A DNA stretch of 64,000 bases from an archaeon. Lineage in GTDB: Archaea; Thermoproteota; Nitrososphaeria; Nitrososphaerales; Gagatemarchaeaceae. This document shows positions 38,112 through 59,068 of the stretch, in pieces. How positions within the stretch are numbered: the first letter of the stretch is position 1; each line of letters opens with the position of its first letter. Position numbers and translations under genes: made by a program. The stretch covers positions 1-64,000 of the forward strand of contig CADDZR010000001.1 of NCBI GenBank assembly GCA_902812495.1. The letters are read 5' to 3'. The notes under the pieces are model-generated. The model had not been told where the DNA came from, ran no database searches, and saw only the letters and a program-made list of their open reading frames with translations.

Positions 38112-39268
38112 ACCTTCGTAACTACAGGGAAAATTTTCCAGTGCTTTCTGAGAAAGTTTACCTCGACAGTGCAGGTGCTGGAATTCCACCTCTCTCAGTT
38201 ACAAACGCCATGCTCGAGTTCATAAAAGAGTGGTCAAGGGAAGGTGAAAAGTGGGAGGAATGGCTTAAAGAATTAATAGAGGTGCGTTCACGATTCGCTT
38301 CTCTTATTGATGTTGACGCAAACCAGGTTGCCGTTGTGCCGAGTGTAAGCGTTGGGCTTGCATCTTTTGCTTCTTCTCTCGACCTAACTAATAAGAAGGT
38401 TGTAACAAGTGAGCTTAACTTTCCAACAAACATTCTTCTCTGGCAGAGAATGAGGGAGAAAGGTCTTGTAAGGAAAGTTGAGGTCTTACGTGCAAAGGAC
38501 GGCATGATTCCACGGAGCTCTTGGAAAAATTCCGTTGACAAAGAAACAGCCCTTGTTGCAGTTGACTATGTCTCGTGGTTGACAGGCTGGAGAGAGGATC
38601 TTAAAGAGTTGGCAGATATTGCTCATAAGAAAGGGGCTCTCATCCTAGTTGACGGTTTTCATGCCACCGGCGTATTCCCCTTCAGTGTGAGGAAGCTCGG
38701 TCTTGATGTATTTGTGACGGGCTTTTACAAATGGATGTGTGGTCCCCATGGCGTTGCGTGTCTTTACGTTTCGAAGGAACTGCTAGAAAAGACTGAGCCA
38801 TCGTACTTGGGATGGCACGGCGTTAGAGATAATGTAGCAGAAAGGGTTATGGCAGGAAGAGACCCGTTTGACAAGCCCTTTCCAACAGGTAATGCAGAAC
38901 CCTCTCACAATGCCTCAAGATACGAGTGGGGAACTTGGGCAGCAGTTGTCATAAGAGGTGTCTTGGAATCGTTAAAATGGTGCGAAAAGGTGAGTCCTTC
39001 AAAGAGATACAAGACGATATCAAGGCTTCGTGAAATTCTTTTCGAAAAGATAGAAAATGCTGGTTTCAATATTGTAACCCCAGAGACAGTTGAAGAAGGG
39101 CTTTCTGGGATAGTTACTTTCAAGGTCAAGGACCATGTCCAGACTGTCGAAAAACTTAGAAGAAAAGGCATAATAGTTTCAGGAAGGTTCAATCATATAC
39201 GGGTATCACCGCACTTCTACAATACAGAAGACGACATCCTTTCATTTTCAAAATCTCTGAAAGACTGA
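38108..39268 (+). CDS. class V aminotransferase (cysteine desulfurase/isopenicillin-epimerase-like)
   Basis: PLP enzyme of fold type I: start VYLDSAGAGIPPLSVTNAML, VDGFHATGVFPFSVRKLGLDVFVTGFYKWMCGPHGVACLYVS with the Schiff-base Lys in FYKWMCG, and the late IVVSGRFNHIRVSPHFYNTEDDIL. No NifS-type Cys loop is evident, so it is more likely an epimerase/lyase-like member than a sulfur donor, but substrate is unknown. Converges with pyrF and overlaps it by 21 nt. Confidence 0.88.
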   Translation: MNLRNYRENFPVLSEKVYLDSAGAGIPPLSVTNAMLEFIKEWSREGEKWEEWLKELIEVRSRFASLIDVDANQVAVVPSVSVGLASFASSLDLTNKKVVTSELNFPTNILLWQRMREKGLVRKVEVLRAKDGMIPRSSWKNSVDKETALVAVDYVSWLTGWREDLKELADIAHKKGALILVDGFHATGVFPFSVRKLGLDVFVTGFYKWMCGPHGVACLYVSKELLEKTEPSYLGWHGVRDNVAERVMAGRDPFDKPFPTGNAEPSHNASRYEWGTWAAVVIRGVLESLKWCEKVSPSKRYKTISRLREILFEKIENAGFNIVTPETVEEGLSGIVTFKVKDHVQTVEKLRRKGIIVSGRFNHIRVSPHFYNTEDDILSFSKSLKD

Positions 39269-39976
39269 GTTTAACTTTTTTATTTCGTTTATCTTATTGT
39301 CTGACTTTATAATAGCTCTGCCTGCAATTATGAAGTCTGCACCTGCGGAGACGGCGGCTTCCGCCTCTCCCCCCTGCGCACCTACTCCAGGAGTAAAAAT
39401 AATGCAGTCCTTTCCGACTATCCTCCTTGTTTCTCTTATAGCCTCTGTATTCTTTGCTGAAACAATCACGCCATCTGCTTTCCATGCCTTTGCCTTCTCT
39501 GCAAATATATGGTAGAGCTTCCTTGAATCGAGATCCATCCCATAAAATTCATCGCTTCCCTTGTTCGAGGTCATGACCAGAAAAATAACACCAAAACCAC
39601 CTCTATCCTTCCGGAGAAGAGCATCCATCCCCTCCTTGTATCCCACTATGGGATTAACTATCACACCACCGAAGCCAAAATACCTCAGCAACCTGTAAAC
39701 CTCTTTGTTTGTGCTGTGTATGTCGTTAAGCTTTAAGTCAGCTATAACTGGGAGTCCTTTCTTATTGCAAAATTCAACTAGGCCTGATATTCCCTTTAGC
39801 CCGTAGGGAAGAATTAAGTGATAGTTCAGCTTGACTGCAGCAACATAGTCAGAAACCTCTTGAAGTGTCCTCATTGACGAACTAAGCCTTGTCTTGACTT
39901 TCGAGGTAAAGTCAAGCGCAATGACAACCCTGCTTTTCGACCTTGAGGCCGATTCGAAAATTACATCTTTGAACAT
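39248..39976 (-). CDS. pyrF: orotidine 5'-phosphate decarboxylase
   Basis: Last enzyme of UMP synthesis. TIM barrel with ALDFTSKVKTR, the catalytic network Lys-Asp-Lys-Asp seen as ADLKLNDIHST, then GVGAQGGEAEAAVSAGADFIIAGRAII for phosphate binding. 242 residues. Its ATG is 27-28 nt from the centre of a palindromic TATA box shared with pyrD. The 3' end overlaps the convergent aminotransferase. Confidence 0.95.
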   Translation of the reverse strand: MFKDVIFESASRSKSRVVIALDFTSKVKTRLSSSMRTLQEVSDYVAAVKLNYHLILPYGLKGISGLVEFCNKKGLPVIADLKLNDIHSTNKEVYRLLRYFGFGGVIVNPIVGYKEGMDALLRKDRGGFGVIFLVMTSNKGSDEFYGMDLDSRKLYHIFAEKAKAWKADGVIVSAKNTEAIRETRRIVGKDCIIFTPGVGAQGGEAEAAVSAGADFIIAGRAIIKSDNKINEIKKLNSVFQRF

Positions 39977-40007: not shown

Positions 40008-40030
40008 TCATGGGATTGCCCATCTTGTTG

Positions 40031-40930
40031 ATGGACATATCAAGAGAGTTTTCGGGTATAAGACTGAAGAACCCGCTTATTCTCGCATCTGGAGTTGTTG
40101 GTAATTCTTTACAAAAGATGATCGACGCATACAGAGCAGGCGCATCTTGCGTTGTTACAAAATCTACAAGCATCAAGCCAAGAAAAGGGTATCCTAAACC
40201 AACTTTCTACTTTGACGGAGTAATTGCTATCAACGCTGTAGGTCTGTCAAATCCCGGAGCAGAGAAGATGCAAAGGATTCTTAAAAATATGGAGAACGTT
40301 CCTTTCATAGCTTCTGTTTTCGGAAAGAATGAAGAGGAGTATGTGGCCGCTGTAAAGGTATTGGATAGAGCTGGGCCAATTGGTTTTGAACTCAATCTTA
40401 GCTGTCCCCATGTCAAGGGTTACGGCACAGAAATTGGACATGACACACAACTAGTTTCCCTAATTGTAGAACAGGTAAAGGAAGCCACAAGAAAACCAGT
40501 CTTTGTTAAGCTCTCGCCAAATACTGAAAAAATAATTGCGATTGCAAAGTCGGCAGAAGATGCAGGTGCTGACGGAGTTGTTGCCATTAATACTGTCAAA
40601 GCAATGATGATAGACGCGGAAACAGGAAGGGCTGTTGTATCCAACAGAATAGGTGGTCTATCTGGAGAGGCAATAAGACCAATAGCGTTGCGGTGTGTTT
40701 ACGAACTTTACGAAGAGTTGAATATACCCATAATAGGTGTGGGTGGAATCTCAAAATGGGAGCACGTTGTCCAGTTCGCGATGGCTGGCGCAACAGCTGT
40801 CGAGATAGGCACTGCTGCTTATTACAAAATCGACGTATTCAGAGAGATACTCTCAGGTATAAAGGAGTACATGTGGAAGAAATCCTTAGCTTCGTTCGAG
40901 GAGCTGGTTGGATTATCACACAGAATTTGA
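40031..40930 (+). CDS. pyrD: dihydroorotate dehydrogenase (class 1B-like catalytic subunit)
   Basis: FMN enzyme oxidising dihydroorotate. Start MDISREFSGIRLKNPLILASGVVGNS; catalytic Cys in FELNLSCPHVKGYG; phosphate-binding GVGGISKWEHVVQFAMAGATAVEIGTA. The Cys rather than Ser base indicates class 1. An ATG at 40010 would add 7 residues but lies only a few bases from the TATA box, so 40031 is chosen. No pyrK-type subunit is adjacent. Converges with pyrE, 15-nt overlap. Confidence 0.94.
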   Translation: MDISREFSGIRLKNPLILASGVVGNSLQKMIDAYRAGASCVVTKSTSIKPRKGYPKPTFYFDGVIAINAVGLSNPGAEKMQRILKNMENVPFIASVFGKNEEEYVAAVKVLDRAGPIGFELNLSCPHVKGYGTEIGHDTQLVSLIVEQVKEATRKPVFVKLSPNTEKIIAIAKSAEDAGADGVVAINTVKAMMIDAETGRAVVSNRIGGLSGEAIRPIALRCVYELYEELNIPIIGVGGISKWEHVVQFAMAGATAVEIGTAAYYKIDVFREILSGIKEYMWKKSLASFEELVGLSHRI

Positions 40931-41503
40931 TGCTCCAGCTCGGACCCCGGGCTTCCCCTTTTTTCTTAAGATTCTGAAAATTTCTCTTACAGTAAAGCAC
41001 GAGTAAAGCGGTACTTTGCTTTTCTTTAGATTCTCCTTTGCCCCCTCCTCCCTGTCCACAAACACAAAGGCAGCAACTACCTTTCCTCCTGTGCTTGATA
41101 CTATATCAACTGTCTCAAGTATGCTTTTTCCGGTAGTTGCAACGTCGTCAACCACGATGCATCTTGAGTTCTCATTTATTTGACCTTCGAGCTTTTTCTC
41201 TGTTCCATGTTTCTTCGTCTCACTCCTGACGTATGCCATGGGCATATGTAAGCTGAGGGAAATAGGTATTGAGAAAAGAAGCCCTGCTGTTGCGACACCT
41301 ACAATACAGTCAAACCTTGAAGGACCGAATTTTGTTACAGTAGAGGTGTAGAGCCTGATTGCTTTTGAGTAAACACTTGGTATACTTGGAATTAATCTTA
41401 TGTCAACATAGTACCTGGACATTTTACCGCTTGAGAGTTTAAATTTTCCAAACTTGAATACACCCATATTGTAAAGGGAAGAGACAAATCTTTCGTTGGA
41501 CAT
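40916..41503 (-). CDS. pyrE: orotate phosphoribosyltransferase
   Basis: 195 residues; PRPP-binding motif RCIVVDDVATTGKSILET and early loop FGKFKLSSGKMSRYYVDIRLI are diagnostic. It joins orotate to PRPP to make OMP. A GGAGGT element lies only one base from the ATG, too close for normal use, while a TATTTTTATG element about 33 nt upstream is the likely TATA box. Orientation minus, facing pyrD. Confidence 0.95.
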   Translation of the reverse strand: MSNERFVSSLYNMGVFKFGKFKLSSGKMSRYYVDIRLIPSIPSVYSKAIRLYTSTVTKFGPSRFDCIVGVATAGLLFSIPISLSLHMPMAYVRSETKKHGTEKKLEGQINENSRCIVVDDVATTGKSILETVDIVSSTGGKVVAAFVFVDREEGAKENLKKSKVPLYSCFTVREIFRILRKKGKPGVRAGASNSV

Positions 41504-41579: not shown

Positions 41580-41587
41580 TTTATATC
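41580..41587 (+). promoter_or_regulatory. TATA box upstream of AsnRS-like gene
   Basis: TTTATATC is centred at about 41583, predicting a start site near 41610, just upstream of a frame that has no ATG, GTG or TTG before residue 78. Confidence 0.5.
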
Positions 41588-41618
41588 GCAGCAAAGAATA
41601 AGTTGAGCGCGGGTTCAT

Positions 41619-42653
41619 ATCTCAGTAACAGAAACAATAGAGAGAGACAGGTCAGAACCCTTCTCTGAAAAAATAAAGAAAACATCTGAAAGGCACAAAA
41701 TTCTCAGCCAACCAGAAATTACAGCTATAGCAAAGATAGAATCTGCAATACTGCGTGGTGCAAGAAGGTATCTTGAAGAAAACGGATTCATAGAAGTCAC
41801 TATACCTCACATAACAAGGGCAACAGGTGCGTGTGAGAATATAGCCACGATGTTCAGTGTAGACTTCTTCGGAGAGAAAAGATACTTGGCACAGACGGGG
41901 CAACTCTACCTCGAAGTTCTAACACCTTATCTAGACAAGGTCTGGGCATGTGGTCCAAGCTTTAGAGCTGAAGAAAGGGTTGACGGAAGACATCTCTGCG
42001 AGTTCACTCTGCTGGAACTAGAATTCAAAGGAGGATTCGAAGAGCTTCTCAACCACATAGAGGGAGTAGTCACGAGTATGGTCGAGTCAGCGCTCGAGAA
42101 GAAGGAAGAGCTTGCTTTACTTGGCTCCAGTACAAAACTTCTCGAAGAAGTTAAGAGACCTTTCAAGAGAATAACATACTCGCAGGCTGTAGAAAGACTG
42201 AAAGAGTATGGGGTACAATGGGGGGACGACCTTAAGGAGTTTCACGAGAAAAAACTTGTCGAGATCGAGGGAAACATGCCATTACTTGTCACACATTACC
42301 CCAAGAAGATCAAGTTCTTTAACATGAGAGAAGATCCTTCAAACAACGAGCAGGTTCTGAGCGCCGATCTATTGCTTCCTTTCAGTGGAGAAGCTGTTGG
42401 TGCCGCAGAAAGGGAGTATAGATACGAGAAAATCTACCAGAGGCTAGTAGAATCAAGTATGCTTGCAATGCTCAGGGAAAGAGGTGGCAGAATAGAGGAC
42501 TTTGGATGGTACCTAAACTTCTACAAGGAGAACCAAGGGGTACAGCATTCTGGCTTCGGCGTTGGCGTAAACAGGGTTGCCCAGTTCGTAATGTGTGCAA
42601 GTGATATAAGGGCTAGCACTGTCTGGCCTGTCAACAGGGAGTCAGAGACCTGA
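41619..42653 (+). CDS. class II aaRS-like protein (AsnRS catalytic-domain paralog, probable asparagine synthetase)
   Basis: Catalytic core of the aspartyl/asparaginyl-tRNA synthetase family without the anticodon-binding domain. Motif 1 region FIEVTIPHITRATGACENIATMFSVDFFGEKRYLAQTGQLYLE, motif 2 VWACGPSFRAEERVDGRHLCEFTLLELEF and motif 3 GVQHSGFGVGVNRVAQFVM are all readable. Archaeal paralogs of this kind make asparagine from aspartate. The first in-frame ATG (41850) would cut through motif 1; coding similarity extends to an AUC at 41619 (ISVTETIERDRSEPF). Since TGA lies at 41604, initiation at AUC or an unusual codon is inferred. Confidence 0.85.
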   Translation: MSVTETIERDRSEPFSEKIKKTSERHKILSQPEITAIAKIESAILRGARRYLEENGFIEVTIPHITRATGACENIATMFSVDFFGEKRYLAQTGQLYLEVLTPYLDKVWACGPSFRAEERVDGRHLCEFTLLELEFKGGFEELLNHIEGVVTSMVESALEKKEELALLGSSTKLLEEVKRPFKRITYSQAVERLKEYGVQWGDDLKEFHEKKLVEIEGNMPLLVTHYPKKIKFFNMREDPSNNEQVLSADLLLPFSGEAVGAAEREYRYEKIYQRLVESSMLAMLRERGGRIEDFGWYLNFYKENQGVQHSGFGVGVNRVAQFVMCASDIRASTVWPVNRESET

Positions 42654-44772: not shown

Positions 44773-44816
44773 CACAGGACTCTTTACGCCTCCACACAGA
44801 TTTTCGGTTCGAACGC
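44773..44816 (-). promoter_or_regulatory. 3' side of 23S processing stem
   Basis: On the minus strand GCGTTCGAACC, ATCTG, GTGGAGGC and GAGTCCTGT pair in order with matching segments before the 23S (48454-48502). The interrupted long stem is the expected precursor helix cut at a bulge-helix-bulge. Confidence 0.65.
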
Positions 44817-44975
44817 GTTGGGCTATAGGTAGCGGACAGGCTGAACGCGTCGGACCGAAGTCCTTCGCGCGTACACCCCCGCCCCTTCAACGCGATCTTC
44901 TATCGCCGCCCTCCTCCATTCCCTCCTCCCCCTTACGGAAGAGAAGAAGAATGGATGGCCCACTCTTCTCGGGAG

Positions 44976-45009
<34 letters not shown>

Positions 45010-45136
45010 TCAACAGCTTAGCTGCCCGGCGTCTTGCCCTCTCGGACAACCGGTACGCCAGAGGCTGCGCCCCGCTGTTCCTCTCGTACTGAGCAGGGCT
45101 TCCCCTCAGTGGACCTCCACTTCCATCAGGTAGAGT

Positions 45137-45181
<45 letters not shown>

Positions 45182-45403
45182 GATGGGCGAGCAGCCCCAC
45201 CCTTGGCCCCTGCTGCAGGACCAGGATGGGAAGAGCCGACATCGCAACCATATCCGCTCTTTCGAGCGGGGTCAGACTATGTCTTCACCCTTCTGCACCT
45301 CGAAGGGGTCGGCGTGTGATGATGTGTGTAAACACATCATCTCATTGCCTATCAAGAGATAGGCTCAGTCGTTACGGGGTCACGGTAGCCATTTAGAGCA
45401 GGG

Positions 45404-45664
45404 CTAGAGCAGTTTCACTGCCTCTTCACGTGGTATCGCTACAAGTGTTTCTGTGTTCGCTGCATCGAGTTGCATGTTAACCTTCATTGCGTCCTTCACG
45501 TCTCTTGCTTCGAAAACTCGGACTGCATCGTATCTTCCAAGTGTCCACCAGACACCTATTGTCTTTACTCCGTGCTTTGACGCCTGCTCGAATACCTTGT
45601 TCGCCTTTTCTATGTCTTCCTTTGTAGGTTTTCTTCTAAACTTGTACAGCGTTACAAATATCAT
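45404..45664 (-). CDS. GYD-domain protein encoded inside the 23S rRNA intron
   Basis: 86 residues from ATG 45664: IFVTLYKFRRKPTKEDIEKANK, GVKTIGVWWTLGRYDAVRVFEA and DAANTETLVAIPREEAVKLL match the GYD family, a small ferredoxin-like fold named for its GxYD motif, of unknown function. No LAGLIDADG, GIY-YIG or HNH motif is present, so this is not a homing endonuclease. A GTG 7 codons upstream is disfavoured because the TATA box lies 28 nt before the ATG. The gene sits in the P6 loop of the intron, on the same strand as the rRNA. Confidence 0.88.
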   Translation of the reverse strand: MIFVTLYKFRRKPTKEDIEKANKVFEQASKHGVKTIGVWWTLGRYDAVRVFEARDVKDAMKVNMQLDAANTETLVAIPREEAVKLL

Positions 45665-45687
45665 GGTTCTTTTTTCCTTTGTCACTC

Positions 45688-45695
45688 TATATAAA
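45688..45695 (-). promoter_or_regulatory. TATA box of the intron-encoded GYD gene
   Basis: TTTATATA read on the minus strand, centred 28 nt before the ATG, implying a separate leaderless mRNA from inside the rRNA gene. Confidence 0.65.
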
Positions 45696-47223
45696 TTTAC
45701 CCTGCCCTGCGGTGCTGAACTACCGGACTTCCCACGGCGTTACCCTGCTTCTGGCTCAAAAAGCGAGGGCTTCGCCGTTATAAGCCGATGCTCCGAACCG
45801 CATTACTGCGGTCGTACCCCAAAACTGAGGTACCAAACCGCGGGGTCGATTGGAGCTCTCGCCCGCGACGAGCCTGTTACCCCTGGGGTAACTTTTCTGT
45901 CACCTCCGGCCCCCAACAGTGGGGACACGAAGGATCGCTAGGCCACGCTTTCGCGGCTGGATGCTCTGCGTTTAAGCATCCAGTCAGGCCGGCTTTTGGC
46001 CTTGCCCTCAACGACGGAGTTCTGACCCGTCTGAGCCGACCTTAGGGCCCCCTCGATACCTTTTCAAGGGGGTGCCGCCCCAGCCGAACTGCCCACCTGC
46101 CGTTGTCCCTCCGAAGAGGTTAGCGACGCAGCCCTGAGTAGCTGGTGTTACATTGGCGCCTCCCCGTTACCCGAAGGCAACGGATCGACGGCTCCCAGCT
46201 ACGCTCTGTACTCAGAACCGCATCGCAGCAACAAGCTGCAGTAAAGCTCCACAGGGACTTCTCTCCCCGATGGAAGTTGATGGACTGTTCGTCCACCTTA
46301 CGTAGGTTCACCGGGTCGCAGACGGGGACAGTAGGGCCCTCGTTGGTCCATTCATGCACGTCGGAACTCACCCGACAAGGCATTTGGCTACCTTAAGAGA
46401 GTCAGAGTTACTCCCGGCGTTTACCGGCCCTTAGCCCGGTTGAACCCGGGTTTTAGGTACCGGCACTGGCCAGGATTCATGAACCGTACAAATCCTTTCG
46501 GACTTGCGGTTCACTGTGTTTTTAGTAAACAGTCGGGACCCCCTTGTTATTGCAACCTGCGAAACCTGCTTCTCGCAAGCAACGCAGGCACCCCTTCTAG
46601 CTAACGTACGGGGCTAATTTGCCGAGTTCCCTCGCCTGCAGTTACCCGACACGCCTTAGGCTACTCACCTAGGGGCACCGGTGTCGGTTCTTGGTACGAT
46701 CCCCGGCATTTCTTTCCAGTCCTGCTTTCAAGGTCCCCGGGAATCGGGTAAACTACCCCAACGGGCAGCCATTCCTGTCTCGCCAGAGTTCTCGTCATTA
46801 CGACACTCCCCCTGACTCGAACAGTTAGACAGAGCGAAAACTCTGCTTACCCTATCTCGAGGCAACAGGACCGATACCGCTTCCTTACGGAAGCATCGAA
46901 ATACCGGAGGCACCGGAATATTAACCGGTTTCCCTGGTTCGGCCTACCCAGTTGAGGTCGGCCTTAGGATCGGCTAACTCCTGGCTGACGACGCATTGCC
47001 AGGAAAACCGTGCCCTTTCGGCGGTCAGGATTCTCACCTGACTAGGCTGCTACTACTACCAGGATCTGCACTAGAAGCCGGTCCACTGGACCTCACGGCC
47101 CAGCTTCTGCCCAGCCTCTACGCCCACCTACCACACACCCTGCACAACAGGGTGGTCTGGAGTATCGGTGGCAGGCTTAAGCCCCGTCCATTTTCGGGGC
47201 CCCCGAGCTCGGCAGGTGAGCTG

Positions 47224-47258
<35 letters not shown>

Positions 47259-47931
47259 TACCTCCCTGCTGTCTAAGCTCGAGGACGCCCTTTTGCTTGA
47301 CACTTAGCCTGCACTTGGGGACCTTAACTCCAGTCTGGGTTAATCCCCTCTCGGTTGTGAGGCTTACCCCACACAAACCCGCCTCCCCGCTTCTACTGCG
47401 CCGACACCTTCGGAGTTCGAAAAGGTGGTGGACCCTTTCGGATCCTTGTCACCTCATCGGTGCTCTACAGCGTCGGCAACATCTGCGGAGACCGGACTGG
47501 GATCCGCTTCGGTGGGAACTAGCAATCACCGAGCTAGATTGGCTTTTGGCCCCTTGCCCCCGGTCAGAGGACCGAGTTGCACGTCAGGACCCCTGCGGAC
47601 CTCCACCAGGCTTTCGCCCGGCTTCGTCCTGCCGAGGGCACGATCGCTCGGTTTCTAGTCTATACCGCCATGACTAAAAGGCCCTTTCAGACCTCCTCCC
47701 ACACCCCTTACGGGGCTACGGAGAATCGCTTTCGCTTCGCCTCCGGGCTTTTAACCCTTAGGCTCGCCATGACGGTAAACTCCCTGGCCCGTGTTTCTAG
47801 ACGGAACGCATGACTCCGGAGCACTTAACCCGCTTTGAGCTCCCTTGCGGGAACTCGCGGCAGGGTCGTACTCCTTCCAAGCCATGCACGTCTGTAACCG
47901 TATGGTTTCAGGCTCTTTTCACACCCCTTCC

Positions 47932-47965
<34 letters not shown>

Positions 47966-48453
47966 GCGCTATCGGTCTTGGGTAGTGTTTAGCCTTGGAG
48001 GCTGCTTTCCCCCATCTTCCCTAGCCACTGCCAAGGCCAGGTACTCTGCCTCTGACACAACCACAGACCCAAAGAATCTACAGGGCTATCACCTTCTTTG
48101 GCCTACCTTTTCAGGTAAGTTCGATCCCTCAGATCCAAGGTTGTATACGCCAGAGGCGAACCCCACATCTCCTACAACTTTCGCTGTAGGATTCGGTTTG
48201 GGCTTTCCCGTTTTCGCTCGCCGCTACTAACGGGATCTCATTTGATTTCTCTTCCTCTTGGTACTCAGATGTTTCCTTTCCCAAGGTTCGCGCTCCTCTC
48301 GGAGCGCCAGGACACCTTACGGTAATCCTGGCGGGTTATACCCCATTCGGGCATCCCCGGATCAAAGGCTGCTTGCGCCTACCCGGGGCTTATCGCAGCT
48401 TGCCACGCCCTTCATCGCCACCCAAGCCAAGCCATCCACCATACGGCGTCGTT

Positions 48454-48502
48454 GCGTTCGAACCTACTGATCTGAGTGGACGCCAGCGCGAGTCCTGTAC
48501 AC
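48454..48502 (-). promoter_or_regulatory. 5' side of 23S processing stem
   Basis: On the minus strand, ACAGGACTC, GCGTCCAC, CAGAT and GGTTCGAACGC pair with the segments listed for 44773-44816. Confidence 0.65.
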
Positions 48503-53954: not shown

Positions 53955-57830
<3,876 letters not shown>

Positions 57831-58960: not shown

Positions 58961-59068
58961 GCGGGGGTAGCGAAGCCTGGTTAAACGCGCGGGACTCAAG
59001 GTCAGCTATGCTTCAGATGGGGTATCCCGTCCCTTAGGGGTCCGTGGGTTCAAATCCCACCCCCCGCA
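58961..59068 (+). tRNA. tRNA-Leu (CAA) with 23-nt intron
   Basis: Acceptor stem GCGGGGG/CCCCCGC (58961-58967 with 59061-59067) and discriminator A. T arm GTGGGTTCAAATCCCAC. Anticodon CAA at 58997-58999 between stems CGGGA and TCCCG, with a long type II variable arm (CCCTTAGGGG). An intron occupies about 59001-59023, the canonical position 37/38. Mature length 85 nt. No 3' CCA encoded. Confidence 0.93.

Follow-up and report, generated by a model that had tools for sequence, protein, structure and literature searches.

An open reading frame for an asparaginyl-tRNA synthetase (AsnRS)-like protein, found in a 1.34-Mb archaeal metagenome assembly (G000), has no ATG, GTG or TTG (NTG) at which its conserved protein could begin, and the same absence is seen in its orthologs from three other genera. 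The gene is probably functional and translated from a non-NTG codon inside the invariant GCG CGG GUU at the 5′ end of an mRNA that is leaderless or almost so. The start codons described for archaea in a review are AUG, GUG and UUG (PMC7531240). On the evidence of sequence comparison, the identical first 11 nt of the start-less orthologs in four genera, at a fixed distance from the promoter, suggest translation from a start codon not yet known in archaea.

In the window, by which we mean the whole 64,000-nucleotide stretch of G000 that was analysed, the frame opens directly behind a TGA and runs for 348 codons to a stop codon at 42651–42653 (Table 1). No in-frame ATG, GTG or TTG occurs before the ATG at 41850, which lies 81 codons from 41607 and 77 from an AUC at 41619. 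The first-pass annotation had reported both the missing start codon and coding similarity, including motif 1, upstream of this ATG. Indeed, the absence recurs among the orthologs, and homology reaches well upstream: the class II (D, K, N) synthetase core of Pfam (PF00152) is matched from residue 26 with 161.3 bits against a cut-off of 25 (E = 3.8e-47), and the orthologs align from residue 1. A structural model predicted from 15 orthologs (mean pLDDT 82) places the motif 1 helix at residues 36–58 and leaves residues 1–14 unstructured.

Table 1. Coordinates of the AsnRS-like gene, its 5′ signals and the neighbouring pyrimidine genes in the window.
Feature	Position	Strand	Remarks
TATA box TTTATATC	41580–41587	+	YTTAWATC in 7/7 Nitrososphaeria orthologs; TTTATA at 41580–41585
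Conserved element RGYGYGGGTY (here AGCGCGGGTT)	41606–41615	+	Position and spacing shared by 7 Nitrososphaeria and 4 Bathyarchaeia orthologs; overlaps the expected mRNA 5′ end
TGA, in-frame stop	41604–41606	+	Directly precedes the first sense codon
GCG, first sense codon and leading candidate initiator	41607–41609	+	Invariant in four genera; GTG in sister lineage G003
GTT, second candidate initiator	41613–41615	+	GTT in 7/7 Nitrososphaeria, GTC in Bathyarchaeia; Streptomyces sigR precedent
ATC, start proposed by the first-pass annotation	41619–41621	+	Not conserved
First in-frame ATG	41850–41852	+	Inside the catalytic core; too late as a start; would remove predicted helix 36–58
AsnRS-like class II synthetase core, without anticodon-binding domain	41607–42653	+	PF00152; best solved relative P. 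horikoshii AsnRS 1x54
pyrE	40916–41503	-	TIGR00336 above cut-off; divergent from the AsnRS-like gene across a 103-bp intergenic region
pyrD	40010–40930	+	TIGR01037 above cut-off
pyrF (OMP decarboxylase family)	39248–39976	-	PF00215; linked in Nitrososphaeria and Bathyarchaeia orthologs

By both sequence and fold, the closest solved relative of the protein is the AsnRS of P. horikoshii. However, the Pfam search of the protein returned no N-terminal OB-fold anticodon-binding domain, and the protein stayed below every NCBIfam cut-off, scoring 228.1 against 414 for the asparaginyl-tRNA synthetase equivalog (NF003037) and 155.8 against 368 for that of asparagine synthetase A (NF005052, PRK06462). 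We thus regard it as a paralog whose function is unproven; it may be an asparagine synthetase. The window holds a second, distant AsnRS-like core without an anticodon domain (54240–54866, plus strand), in a 340-aa open frame with 26% identity that is related to archaeal asparagine synthetase-like paralogs.

The assembly has its nearest named relatives in Thaumarchaeota / Nitrososphaerales. The gene is present in 6 of the 46 genomes of the family. In G007, G002 and G127, three other genera of that family, the orthologs (61–63% protein identity) are likewise start-less. The ortholog in G001 is cut off before the start region, and G003 is the only other one in the family that reaches it. Because loci L034, L035 and L036 apparently come from the same genomes as G007, G002 and G127, the independent start-less cases number four, not seven; all four genomes are metagenome assemblies. 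An indel in one assembly cannot explain an absence that is shared by the other three genera, and a sequencing error that hid an in-frame ATG or TTG, which the first-pass annotation had named as the finding that would overturn it, is excluded.

The comparison of start codons in close relatives that had been proposed as a check also showed where the four genera agree. Their first codons are GCG CGG GTT CAY, with an identical GCGCGGGTTCA and the first 11 nt the same throughout, and the codon before GCG differs (TGA, AGA, CCA or ACA). The AUC at 41619, which the first-pass annotation had preferred as initiator, did not survive this comparison: that codon is ATC, ATT, TTC or TTA in the four start-less orthologs, and the conserved codons GCG CGG GTT lie just upstream of it.

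Relatives that do possess an NTG place it at or next to the same position. G003 reads TAG GTG CGG GTT CTC ATC, with GTG in place of GCG right behind the stop; in the tree, it is nested in the start-less group as the sister of G002 (fork 86/74, enclosing fork 96/93). In the second family of the class (f20), the NTG stands one codon upstream of the GCG position, as TTG in G402 (TAG TTG GCG CGG GTT CAT ATC, which keeps GCGCGGGTTCAT behind the TTG) and as ATG in G418 (ATG GCG TGG GTT TTT ATA). Among the 11 aligned orthologs, codon 3 is GTT in all seven from Nitrososphaeria and GTC in those from Bathyarchaeia, in which the codon after GTC, a GTG or ATG, is probably the start. The Bathyarchaeia orthologs (L037, L038, L039 and L041) can form a tight hairpin, GGGTC-(G/A)TGGA-GACCC, that holds the start codon in its loop. 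In the start-less orthologs, the block pairs with the sequence downstream of it no better than shuffles do (p = 0.18), and a conserved 5′ hairpin was rejected for them.

No further start-less copy with GCG was found in the family (46 genomes), the order and the class (400 genomes each), the phylum (398), the order of G402, the class of G541 or viral contigs; two matches to the pattern in the viral collection encode no relative. An ortholog from another archaeal class (L128; G541, C1:57228–58265) also lacks an in-frame NTG. Around its position 1501, TTG GAA AGG GTT CTC TGA matches the conserved N-terminus one frame off the main open reading frame, which may reflect a frameshift, an error or a programmed event.

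The agreement at the start is one of nucleotides. The alignment has 94 invariant residues for which four or more codons exist; at only 4 of them is the codon identical in five genomes, and codons 1–3 make up three of these 4. A smoothed estimate puts the chance of three consecutive codons of this kind at about 1e-5; because the sequences are related, this value serves as a guide rather than as an exact probability. Synonymous sites outside the block are scrambled, and no stretch of eight or more identical nucleotides exists in the coding sequence except its first 11. Codons 5–24 behave differently: they differ at 77, 65 and 89 of 120 comparisons at codon positions 1, 2 and 3, respectively, are free of stops only in this frame and score positively only in this frame (none of 2000 codon shuffles did as well). 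They therefore evolve as protein, which puts the translation start at or before about codon 5. As the orthologs share no upstream NTG, the candidates left are GCG, CGG, GUU and CAY.

What precedes the block is equally constant in its spacing. The first-pass annotation had predicted from a TATA box that the gene starts near 41610, and this prediction is supported and strengthened by the four genera that share the arrangement. The first T of the TATA box lies 27 nt before GCG in 11 of 11 aligned orthologs, a distance that would place the transcription start at the first codon. With the orthologs aligned on the TATA box (first base = 1), positions 27–36 read RGYGYGGGTY, and the 20 nt between box and element, unconserved in sequence, show no change in length. 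A search for the combined pattern TTAWAT-N20-GCGCGGGTT gave a single match in each of five genomes and none in a reversed control. Among the homology-supported genes of G000, start codons pile up 27–33 nt from TATA-like boxes, with peaks at 28 and 31–33. At 27, codon 1 is thus at the edge of this range; transcription starts at about 28–33 would make codon 1 either the 5′ end itself or a codon that begins one or two bases upstream of it. No ribosome binding site was found at the gene. An 8-bp match near the 3′ end of 16S rRNA is about what chance would give, and none of the tRNAs offers a convincing pairing partner for the block.

Several RNA genes in the window and in related genomes have unusual architectures. 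A 23S rRNA match at 44806–48464 (minus strand) spans 3659 bases against a 2987-position model and probably contains one or more insertions or introns; its own strand carries no open reading frame of at least 100 aa. The 16S rRNA gene of G003 (L139, C4:189899–192307) spans 2409 bases, suggesting an insertion of ~900 nt. At 58961–59068 (plus strand) is an intron-containing tRNA, by eye Leu (CAA), which ARAGORN misses by default and calls Asp when introns are allowed. Another ARAGORN call in G000, at C3:57529–57620 in L074, has the stop anticodon TTA and is probably an intron-containing sense tRNA that was misread.

How might translation begin on such a message? Transcription would start at about 41607–41611, giving an mRNA with little or no leader, whose 5′ end could place the first codon or codons in the ribosomal P site, where the ordinary initiator Met-tRNA would accept a mismatched codon. 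As a weak start, such a codon would hold expression down or make it depend on initiation fidelity. The initiator tRNA of G000 is ordinary, with a CAU anticodon, A1 and the GGG/CCC anticodon stem. A special initiator tRNA with anticodon CGC was not among the tRNAs recovered; the CGC tRNA is an ordinary alanine tRNA.

GCG at 41607 is the likeliest initiator, a choice that we make tentatively. Against the initiator tRNA, it would form a G-U pair at position 1 and a C-A mismatch at position 2, and it lies two steps from AUG, which counts against it. In its favor, the GTG at codon 1 of G003 and the NTG just before it in f20 place the starts of the sister lineages at codon 0 or 1. By this account, which is plausible but far from assured, translation of a leaderless mRNA would start at GCG in four or more archaeal genera, the CAU initiator tRNA would accept the middle mismatch at the 5′ end within GCGCGGGUUCAY, and sister lineages would have reverted to GUG or acquired an NTG at the preceding codon. 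GUU at 41613 would be the next likeliest initiator, though an unlikely one taken by itself; its mismatch would fall at position 3, as in Streptomyces sigR. The remaining probability is spread over other codons, editing and a hidden canonical start. The unusual codons GCG CGG GTT are conserved as a group in four genera, which leaves the exact candidate among them ambiguous.

The most serious competitor to a GCG start, doubtful as we consider it, is that the block acts at the DNA level as a transcription-start element with pyrimidine-purine steps, possibly responsive to pyrimidine nucleotides, with the mRNA 5′ end falling within it and GUU 41613 or some other near-cognate codon, rather than GCG, serving as the start of translation. 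RGYGYGGGTY varies among the 11 orthologs only between A and G at its first base and between C and T at three positions, a pattern that fits a promoter or transcription-start motif equally well. Since C and T are the only bases seen at positions 29 and 31, the GTG of G003 could be a neutral C-to-T change in such a motif. Moreover, f20 and G003 keep the element although they have an NTG. A start-codon role can thus not be the only cause of its conservation, and the bases around the start probably also serve transcription initiation or 5′-end recognition. The TATA-to-start distances typical of G000 put the mRNA end inside the block, the GTT or GTC at codon 3 is present in 11 of 11 orthologs, and in Streptomyces, sigR starts with GTC or, in two species, with GTT (PMC5472188). 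The linked genes pyrE, pyrD and pyrF also speak for this explanation and make a pyrimidine-responsive transcription start a reasonable idea for the element. Under this explanation, however, it would be by chance that G003 has GTG at codon 1 and that the two f20 genomes each have an NTG at codon 0.

Other explanations fare worse. Editing of the mRNA from C to U could turn GCG into GUG, and the genomic codon at this position in G003 is indeed GTG; to our knowledge, though, archaeal C-to-U editing is known only for tRNA, and we deem this route improbable. Its precedent is in plant chloroplasts, which make AUG from ACG and in which the start codons of rpl2, psbL and ndhD arise by C-to-U editing (PMC9845219). 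There is very little chance that a canonical start lies elsewhere, reached through an upstream exon, a readthrough stop or programmed frameshifting from another frame. In G007, an in-frame ATG does stand 24 codons upstream without an intervening stop, the only NTG in the start-less group that could extend the conserved protein, and the window has a TTG one base out of frame at 41603. Yet the G007 codon precedes the TATA box and has no equivalent elsewhere in the group, nor do the orthologs share the out-of-frame TTG. In G002 and G127, stops close the frame 14 codons upstream and no NTG follows them before the block; the window has its TGA directly before GCG, and the TATA box with its unconserved 20 nt intervenes. 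A late start, at ATG 41850 or at a CTG or ATA near codons 23–25, with the rest as 5′ untranslated region, is remoter still: a CTG near codon 25 does occur in G007, G002, G127 and G003, but the window has ATA there, codons 5–24 evolve as protein, and a start at ATG 41850 would cost the protein a core helix. That the gene is decaying or misassembled is scarcely credible. A few genes without an NTG do occur in one genome only, so such noise exists; here, the same defect and the same 11 nt are found in four independently assembled genera, with catalytic-core residues invariant and the frame intact.

The non-NTG start that we favor appears to be a property of this gene. In a scan of about a third of G000, the element was unique, and a genome-wide habit of GCG starts was rejected. 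Among 563 homology-supported genes in four genomes (that part of G000 and parts of three relatives), the other long NTG-less cases were confined to single genomes or were apparent wrong frames. Three genes with homology well upstream of their first NTG, each in one genome, could be indels or other non-standard starts: a HypE/AIRS-like gene in G000 (L101:6867), a TrpB-like gene in G002 (L123:12921) and a PheS-like gene in G402 (L153:14490). We found no relevant papers on a GCG start codon in the open-access literature.

The genomic setting of the gene is also conserved. Across Nitrososphaeria, pyrE, pyrD and pyrF are linked to it, and in Bathyarchaeia pyrF is (nearby in three of them); a role in or near pyrimidine metabolism is conceivable. 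In G002 and G003, the AsnRS-like gene, pyrE, pyrD and pyrF follow one another on one strand; G000, G007 and the f20 genomes have pyrE in divergent orientation. The occurrence of RGYGYGGGTY at a fixed TATA distance in two archaeal classes, in many cases beside pyrimidine genes, points to an undescribed 5′-end control element. There is a practical consequence as well: start-codon prediction in archaea assumes AUG, GUG or UUG, and gene finders will miss or truncate this gene. A non-NTG start region that is identical in nucleotides across genera offers a natural test of how the eukaryote-like machinery of archaea selects starts on leaderless mRNAs, and of whether the mRNA 5′ end can replace codon-anticodon pairing.

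Known systems resemble this gene in part. As an enzyme, the product shares its class II catalytic core with asparaginyl-tRNA synthetase and archaeal asparagine synthetase A (3p8t), but differs in its missing anticodon-binding domain, its scores below the NCBIfam cut-offs and its linkage to pyrimidine genes. With regard to initiation, bacterial infC (ATT in E. coli, ATC in Streptomyces; PMC5472188) likewise has a conserved non-canonical start on a translation-linked gene; there, however, a single mismatch is coupled to feedback by the encoded factor, whereas our gene encodes a synthetase-like enzyme and does not conserve AUH at codon 5. Streptomyces sigR, for which a GTC start is proven and GTT inferred in two species (PMC5472188), is also a single gene whose conserved non-NTG start is kept in near-variants across species, comparable to the GUU at codon 3. 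In contrast to our gene, which is archaeal, apparently leaderless, without a ribosome binding site and marked by an 11-nt invariant start block, sigR is bacterial, has the strong ribosome binding site AGGAGGTG and is under IF3 control. In Saccharolobus, leaderless initiation at AUG or GUG is established, and the 5′ triphosphate contributes to it (PMC11698992). The GUG-start mRNA of S. solfataricus aIF2β lacks a ribosome binding site, and a TATA box precedes its start by about 27 nt (PMC11698992), as is the case here. G003 has exactly this arrangement with GTG, whereas in the four start-less genera the codon in place of a 5′-terminal AUG, GUG or UUG is GCG.
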